In this document: positions 24,937-44,306 of the stretch, piece after piece | Layout of the letters: every line of letters starts with the position of its first letter | Numbering within the stretch: position 1 is the first letter of the stretch | Origin: Sulfobacillus benefaciens | GTDB taxonomy: Bacteria; Bacillota; Sulfobacillia; Sulfobacillales; Sulfobacillaceae | NCBI GenBank assembly: GCA_003023725.1 | Contig: PXYT01000001.1 | Location: forward strand, 1-64,000 | DNA length: 64,000 nt | Reading direction: 5' to 3' | Notes under the pieces: generated by a model | What the model was told of the DNA's origin: nothing | Databases searched by the model: none | Seen by the model: the letters and a program-made list of their open reading frames with translations, nothing else | Made by a program: the position numbers and the translations under genes

Positions 24937-25761
24937 ATGTCAAATAATTACAATATGATGAACAGATTTATGCGTATGCGTTACCAGGATTCTGGTAGAT
25001 CCCACCAAATGGACAGTCGGCTCGGCCAAAAATCACGGTCGCGGCGAAACACGTGGGCGGCATGGTTACTGACGCTCCTTAGCTTTTTGGTCTACATGGC
25101 CGTATCCGACTGGACGGGGCGAGGGCAAGTAATAGCCCATCGAGCGGGACAAACCAATGTGGTTGCCTGGCTGACAGTGTTAGAAATTATCGCGACTGTC
25201 TTATTCGCACTGGGTATTTTTGTCGTTGAATATGCCTTCCTCGTGCGCCCCTGGCGGTGGTCTGCACAGCATGACGCACTCACAAGTCTTCTGAATCAAG
25301 GAGCTTTTTGGGCCACTGCCCAAAATCTCTGGCACCGTTACCGCGACAAGACTTCCGTAACGATCATGATCGCCGACGTGGATCATTTTAAATCAATTAA
25401 TGACGAATATGGCCATCTGCAAGGTGATCAGGTCTTAATGCATATCGGCCATGTCCTCGGTCAACCCGGTTCGTCGACGGCGGTCGTCGGACGCATAGGC
25501 GGCGAAGAATTTGCCGCGCTTTGGGTCGGATCACCTTCCAACGACGTCTATCGCACCGCCGAATACTGGTCCGGGCAGATACAAAGCATCGAATGTCCGG
25601 AAGGCATTAGTCATGTCACCATTTCGGTTGGCATTGCAACTGCTCACCCTTCAGCCGTAGAGACCTTGCAATCATTGGAATCGCTGGCACGTCATGCGGA
25701 CAAAGCATTATATCGGGCCAAGACCAATGGCCGCAACCGTATCGAAACCATCCAATGCTAA
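24937..25761 (+). CDS. Diguanylate cyclase (GGDEF) with two membrane helices
   Basis: About 274 residues. Two hydrophobic helices (about 37-55 and 73-100), then a GGDEF domain starting at HDALTSLLNQGAFW. The metal-binding DVDHFKSINDEYGH and signature GGEEF are both present, so cyclic-di-GMP synthesis is expected. The I-site RxxD is not evident before GGEEF. Start: ATG 24937, or the adjacent TTG 24934; AAGAGG is 10-13 bases away. There is no sensory domain apart from the membrane part. Confidence 0.85.
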   Translation: MSNNYNMMNRFMRMRYQDSGRSHQMDSRLGQKSRSRRNTWAAWLLTLLSFLVYMAVSDWTGRGQVIAHRAGQTNVVAWLTVLEIIATVLFALGIFVVEYAFLVRPWRWSAQHDALTSLLNQGAFWATAQNLWHRYRDKTSVTIMIADVDHFKSINDEYGHLQGDQVLMHIGHVLGQPGSSTAVVGRIGGEEFAALWVGSPSNDVYRTAEYWSGQIQSIECPEGISHVTISVGIATAHPSAVETLQSLESLARHADKALYRAKTNGRNRIETIQC

Positions 25762-25936
25762 AGAGATTGGTGTCCTGACTGAAGTCTTACTCAGTCGATG
25801 GCCGACAACACGACAACCATATCCACTTTCCCGTTCTACCCGGATAAATCGAGTCTCCTCACGATCCTCTCATTCACGGCATGTTAAAATAAGAATGGAT
25901 AAAAGAGTTGGGATTTTTCTCGGGGAGGGATCCAGG

Positions 25937-42971: not shown

Positions 42972-43000
42972 TTGATTCTGCGGTAACCAAACAATATAAT
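42972..43000 (+). promoter_or_regulatory. Strong vegetative-type promoter of the CMD-family gene
   Basis: TTGATT (42972-42977), a 17-base spacer and TATAAT (42995-43000), giving a leader of about 57 bases. A 15-bp inverted repeat, AAGAT-CCGGA-ATCTT (42959-42973), touches the -35 and could be an operator. It is a near-consensus sigma-A promoter, notable because the surrounding DNA is decayed. Confidence 0.7.
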
Positions 43001-43063
43001 GATCCACAACCCAGTTCTCTGAGTGAAGAAATTCGCGCCATCGCCAAGAGAGGAGAATGAGTC

Positions 43064-43426
43064 ATGCCGGCCATTAAAAAACCACGTCATTTCTCTGCCA
43101 ATGCACACTATCGAACGTATTTTGCCCAAACCCATGAAGCGGGAGCGCTGGACGCAAAAACCAAAGAGTTGATGCATTTGGCCTTGGTACTCGCCTTTCA
43201 CTGCGAACCGTGAGCGGTAAGCCACTTCGCAGGCGCGAAGCGAATGGGCGCGACGGAGGCAGAAATTGCGGAGACCGTGCAACTAGCTGCGTCGGTGGGT
43301 GCCGGTGTCGTGCTGGCGATGGCAGATCGTGCGCACGATGCGTCTGACGCACGCCATTACTGGTGGCGACCGTCCCGCCCCGGAAACAACGCGGAGCATG
43401 CTCGCACCGAAAAGGATTCGGATTAA
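43064..43426 (+). CDS. CMD/AhpD-family protein with in-frame TGA: candidate CxxU selenoprotein
   Basis: A frame of 120 residues if TGA 43211-43213 (codon 50) is read as an amino acid. Before it: GALDAKTKELMHLALVLAFHCEP; after it: AVSHFAGAKRMGATEAEIAETVQLAASVGAG. Both belong to the carboxymuconolactone decarboxylase/AhpD family, and together they give C47-E-P-[TGA]-A-V-S-H54, the AhpD active-site pattern CxxCxxxH with the second cysteine replaced. A perfect 6-bp CTTCGC/GCGAAG hairpin with loop AGGC starts 12 bases after the TGA. AGAGGAG precedes ATG 43064, and the promoter is strong. Peroxidase or disulfide-type redox activity is expected. The alternative is a recent nonsense mutation; no sel genes are in the window. 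Confidence 0.6.
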
Positions 43427-43643: not shown

Positions 43644-44306
43644 ATGAGACGGATTGTCTTTGACGCATACGGCACATTATTGGATTTGACGGCGATCATG
43701 GCTCGCGTGCGGGCGGTGACAGAGGACCGAGGGGAAGAGTTTTTGGCTCTGTGGCGCCAAAAACAATTGGAATACGCCTTCTTGCGAACGATCATGGGGC
43801 GCTATGCGCCCTTTCGTCAAATTACGCAAGACGCGTTGGATTATGTGCTGGAGCGATTCGGACTTCGCGTAAACCCATCGGAACGGGAACGGCTCGTGAA
43901 CGGATGGACCGCTGCCGAGGCATTCCCAGACGCTGGCCCCGCCTTGAAGGCGCTTCGCTCGGCCGGGTGGTCCCCTTTGATTTTATCCAACGGGGATCCC
44001 ATGATGCTCCAAGCATCGGTGGCGCATAGCGGACTATTGCCCTTGCTTGATGATGTTTTGAGCATTGAGGACGTACATCGCTTTAAACCCGATCCTCGTG
44101 CATACCAGATTGTGTTAGATCGGTATGGAGGGACGGCCGATCAGGTAACATTCGTTTCGTCCAATGGGTGGGATGTGGCCGGAGCAGTCGCTTTCGGCTT
44201 TACCGTGTTCTGGATTAACCGAACGCATACGGTTCTGGAGCATCTGAATTTGCCTCCGACAGCTCAGCTTACGTCCTTAACCGAATTGACACGCCAACTT
44301 CTTTAG
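43644..44306 (+). CDS. HAD hydrolase, L-2-haloacid dehalogenase type
   Basis: 220 residues, type II haloacid dehalogenase family. Nucleophile aspartate in FDAYGTLLD at the very N-terminus, PLILSNGDPMML (motif II), HRFKPDPRAYQIV (motif III lysine) and FVSSNGWDVAGAVAFGF (motif IV). The family hydrolyses 2-haloacids to 2-hydroxyacids, though many members act on other substrates. GGAGGAG lies about 10 bases before ATG 43644. It lies 218 bases after the CMD-family gene on the same strand, within the island. Confidence 0.87.
   Translation: MRRIVFDAYGTLLDLTAIMARVRAVTEDRGEEFLALWRQKQLEYAFLRTIMGRYAPFRQITQDALDYVLERFGLRVNPSERERLVNGWTAAEAFPDAGPALKALRSAGWSPLILSNGDPMMLQASVAHSGLLPLLDDVLSIEDVHRFKPDPRAYQIVLDRYGGTADQVTFVSSNGWDVAGAVAFGFTVFWINRTHTVLEHLNLPPTAQLTSLTELTRQLL

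Follow-up and report, generated by a model that had tools for sequence, protein, structure and literature searches.

A predicted stand-alone AhpD/CMD-fold selenoprotein gene in Sulfobacillus benefaciens

A gene of the CMD/AhpD family lies at positions 43064-43426 of a 64,000-nucleotide stretch of Sulfobacillus benefaciens DNA (hereafter the window), and has TGA in place of the codon for its second active-site cysteine. Is this a broken gene, or is the TGA read as selenocysteine (Sec, U)? An initial annotation, made from the sequence letters, put the gene forward as a candidate CxxU selenoprotein. This proposal is supported by what follows: the same TGA and hairpin recur in relatives, and the genome encodes Sec machinery.

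The reading frame and its family

As the initial annotation had it, a single frame on the forward strand runs from ATG 43064 to TAA 43426, the one interruption being a TGA at 43211-43213 (codon 50); the window copy carries no further lesion. With U counted, the product has 120 residues, the size first given, and the context of codon 50 is HCEP-U-AVSH. The motif is thus C47-E-P-U50-x-x-x-H54, or CxxUxxxH, so that the AhpD pattern CxxCxxxH is indeed present with TGA at its second Cys. A PF02627 match covers residues 17-81 and spans the TGA (51.2 bits against a cut-off of 23; E 1e-13), and TIGR00778 also matches (40.6 bits; cut-off 27.8). The predicted fold (pLDDT 86, with U given as C) has its best PDB matches among CMD/AhpD proteins, namely RclX (7y4r) and TM1620; a domain above the gathering cut-off together with a CMD fold places the protein in the CMD/AhpD family (PF02627). 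Cys47 (43202-43204, forward strand), the presumed resolving Cys of CxxU, is invariant in 30 aligned homologues, and the column of His54 (43223-43225, forward strand) is nearly so.

The sequence upstream of the gene had been credited with a good ribosome binding site and a near-consensus promoter. The former, AGGAG at 43051-43055 (forward strand), is there, with the ATG 8 nt downstream. A promoter-like TTGATT-17-TATAAT is likewise present at 42972-43000 (forward strand) and agrees with the consensus at 10 of 12 positions, but it is weak evidence: a consensus scan of the region found two such sites where 0.8 would be expected by chance.

Codon 50, the hairpin and gene loss in relatives

Homologues were sought in 61 relatives and in a genome collection. 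Intact TGA orthologues with 65-77% identity were found in G011, G012, G015, G020, G031, G038, G040, G041, G424 and one Dormiibacterota MAG. Codon 50 is TGA in every intact close orthologue (11/11), with conserved sequence on both sides, and it is also TGA in the more distant members G146 and G213 (~47% identity) and G527 (59%). No orthologue with Cys at codon 50 occurs among 154 genomes of the class; remote homologues, at ~48-50% identity and below, usually have Cys at this position (TGC or TGT, in CxxC). If U is read as C the column of residue 50 is invariant, Sec aligning with the conserved redox Cys of the homologues. The alignment of homologues that the initial annotation had recommended therefore gives TGA rather than Cys in close relatives, with the hairpin conserved. 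Downstream of the TGA the gene is under purifying selection, dN/dS being ~0.07-0.13 in pairs with estimable dS; dS is saturated 5' of the TGA, and these values cover the downstream side only. An in-frame UGA flanked by conserved coding sequence in orthologues is a pattern by which bacterial selenoproteins are recognized. A sequencing error, which the initial annotation had allowed for by naming reads with TGC/TGT at 43211-43213 as a refutation, is untenable because independent genomes share the TGA, the finished plasmid CP003180.1 included. Judged from these alignments, the TGA is ancestral to the orthologous group and not a new mutation.

A hairpin, CTTCGC-AGGC-GCGAAG, occupies 43225-43240 (forward strand). 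Its position and geometry are as originally described, with a 6-bp stem and an AGGC loop starting 17 nt 3' of the TGA. The free energy of the 50 nt counted from the UGA is -13.9 kcal/mol, and, folded by itself, the hairpin has no greater stability than shuffled controls (z +0.66); the hairpin is significant because it is conserved in relatives, not by energy alone. The comparison of silent sites took in 36 degenerate codons whose residue is invariant among the 11 TGA orthologues. Only six of them show no third-base variation (codons 51, 54, 55, 56, 58 and 59), and all six lie directly after the TGA, a clustering with a hypergeometric P of ~1e-5. The hairpin itself is nearly identical across orthologues; within its 16 nt one base alone varies freely, the third base of Gly57 at the end of the loop. 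More distant TGA members have the stem CCTTGC/GCAAGG (or CTTGC/GCAAG) instead of CTTCGC/GCGAAG, with both partners changed in two pairs. The 6-bp stem is found in 12 of 14 TGA sequences and the remaining two keep five of the six pairs; none of 51 Cys homologues has a six-pair stem. The loop, stem, spacing and G position agree with the published model of the bacterial SECIS (PMC13188914), so that the fit to this pattern noted at the outset holds, now with a stem conserved through compensatory changes. On sequence comparison rather than energy, the hairpin is a SECIS element.

The selenoprotein gene is patchily distributed. It is missing from six of seven congeners searched, and G007, of the same genus, retains only a C-terminal remnant (L153): the gene has lost three quarters of its length from the 5' side, the conserved part is down to its final ~25 residues, preceded by unrelated sequence, and the haloacid dehalogenase gene beside it is intact, with 85% amino acid identity. 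Damaged copies also occur in G022, G029 and G039. The G039 orthologue (L152) is frameshifted by the loss of two bases at the Sec codon, and downstream of this the hairpin and the frame remain. The usual fate of the gene seems to be loss and not return to Cys.

Could the window gene then be a pseudogene, that is, a CMD gene of the Cys type, sited on an island in decay, in which a single base change turned TGC or TGT into TGA? The decayed copies just described would agree with this, as would the gene-poor stretch that surrounds the window gene. Nevertheless we consider it highly improbable, given that the same TGA is present in all intact orthologues, from several families and two phyla, that the hairpin shows compensatory changes, that dN/dS is low 3' of the TGA, and that the window copy has no second lesion. 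A milder version accepts the selenoprotein family as real and holds that the window copy is silent or just starting to decay. Because the gene is patchy and copies in relatives are damaged, loss of the window copy could have begun even though no lesion can be seen in it, and the truncation in G007 and further losses within the family point the same way; with frame, SECIS, ribosome binding site and start codon all intact in the window, such decay appears unlikely.

It is of note that a different AhpD-family gene (G004, L024) has TGA at the second Cys, in the context GCSY-TGA-IDSH, and is another likely CxxU selenoprotein. Matches with one in-frame TGA are found in the related genomes G003, G022 and G026.

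Selenocysteine machinery and the reading of UGA

The initial annotation had suggested a search of the genome for selA, selB, selD and a tRNA-Sec, and all were found. The window's own genome has a tRNA-Sec with anticodon UCA (TCA in the DNA), selB (358 bits), selA (556 bits) and selD (358 bits), the last itself with an in-frame TGA. The presence of selA, selB, selC and selD together is that expected of a bacterium that makes selenoproteins. In all checked genomes that carry the TGA gene, selB scores above cut-off. For tRNA-Sec, only matches above the gathering score were counted, and the anticodon TCA was checked by ARAGORN in four; the family search at E <= 0.001 is unspecific, every genome being matched via other long tRNAs.

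The same genome has two formate dehydrogenases with an in-frame TGA (T-U-HAPSV; L157 and L158, on contigs C81 and C46 of G000), each followed by a hairpin at the same distance, with loop GGTCT. The selD gene (U-GCK; L132, G000 C84) likewise has a hairpin at this distance from its TGA. On these sequence features, the formate dehydrogenases and selD are further selenoproteins of the genome.

UGA read-through without Sec occurs in other lineages, and this general precedent is what could be said for a reading in which a suppressor or code change inserts another residue at codon 50, or in which two separate proteins are made. That the TGA falls exactly at the redox Cys position, that a tRNA-Sec with anticodon UCA and selB are present, and that the hairpin is conserved make such readings exceedingly improbable. 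We conclude, from the PF02627 match, the TGA orthologues, dN/dS, the SECIS-type hairpin and the Sec machinery of the host, that 43064-43426 (forward strand) is almost certainly a living gene for an AhpD/CMD-fold CxxU selenoprotein with Sec at residue 50 of 120. SelB carrying Sec-tRNA(Sec) would bind the hairpin, and the UGA would then be decoded as selenocysteine.

Possible role and known relatives

What might such a protein do? As a CxxU redox enzyme it would have Sec50 in place of the peroxidatic Cys of the AhpD-type CxxCxxxH. His54, acting as a relay, would activate Sec50, which would reduce its oxidant, a (hydro)peroxide or something similar, before being resolved by Cys47. The parts given here to Sec (attacking) and Cys47 (resolving) follow established AhpD chemistry. 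By this analogy a peroxidase-like role is the one towards which we lean.

The gene neighbourhood gives a further clue to the possible task of a CMD selenoprotein. A type II haloacid dehalogenase gene is linked to it at 43644-44306 (forward strand; TIGR01428 at 213 bits, cut-off 125). In eight of nine family genomes a haloacid dehalogenase gene, intact or damaged, adjoins the CMD gene or what is left of it: the window's, G007, G011, G012, G020, G022, G029 and G031, with G015 the exception (conserved neighbour loci: L147, L148, L153, L154 and L164). In the sister family no dehalogenase was found beside the CMD selenoprotein gene. The linkage suggests a shared detoxification or stress role acting on halogenated or oxidised small molecules. 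A more far-reaching proposal, which we offer tentatively and hold to be rather less than even in probability, is that the stand-alone CMD/AhpD selenoproteins of acidophilic Sulfobacillaceae and their relatives form a subfamily of their own in which only Sec is used, paired with a type II haloacid dehalogenase. The two would make up a detoxification module that depends on selenium; it would disappear by deletion, and a Cys form would never take its place.

In Sulfobacillus acidophilus DSM 10332, plasmid CP003180.1 (84,933 bp) carries the orthologue immediately following a TetR gene. Its annotation there is a 'hypothetical protein' of 48 residues (25727-25873), which stops at the TGA; the present analysis corrects this error, in which the protein of a finished plasmid was cut at its Sec codon. 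The papers retrieved make no mention of this orthologue, and we found no report of the Sulfobacillaceae CxxU group; the only selenoprotein mentioned in a genome comparison of Sulfobacillus is formate dehydrogenase (PMC4378227).

Two NCBIfam families of selenoproteins were considered. The best match is NF041537, the ArsM/AhpD-domain selenoprotein, which is also CxxU. Its members are fusions of ~345 residues between an arsenite methyltransferase and a C-terminal AhpD domain, whereas the window protein is a stand-alone domain of 120 residues; the match (55.7 bits, residues 14-91) covers the AhpD part only and falls far below the cut-off of 510 for ArsM_AhpD_UU. The NF041047 GSU3128 family (seleno)protein is, like the window protein, AhpD-type, CxxU and stand-alone, but the score of 39.4 bits is below the equivalog cut-off of 110. 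The nearest solved structures, by sequence and by fold, are the CMD-family proteins RclX (7y4r) and TM1620 (1p8c, 1vke); RclX is 38% identical over the aligned region, the Sec being the window protein's.

The initial annotation was right that AhpD-like proteins are a reported selenoprotein family of bacteria, and the window gene is not the first of its class because CxxU selenoproteins of the AhpD/CMD type go back to 2005 in the literature (PMC1088965, PMC2398784). It belongs to this class, and is not broken, because many relatives share the codon and the RNA hairpin; it is an unannotated, overlooked addition to it. The CMD-like (PF02627) or AhpD-like CxxU selenoproteins from metagenomes (PMC1088965, PMC2398784; listed in PMC13188914) share the Pfam domain of the window protein, and like it have Sec at the second Cys and a SECIS just downstream. 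Unlike the Sulfobacillaceae group they are mostly marine, and the window gene and its orthologues extend CxxU AhpD-like selenoproteins to acidophiles of the bioleaching type.
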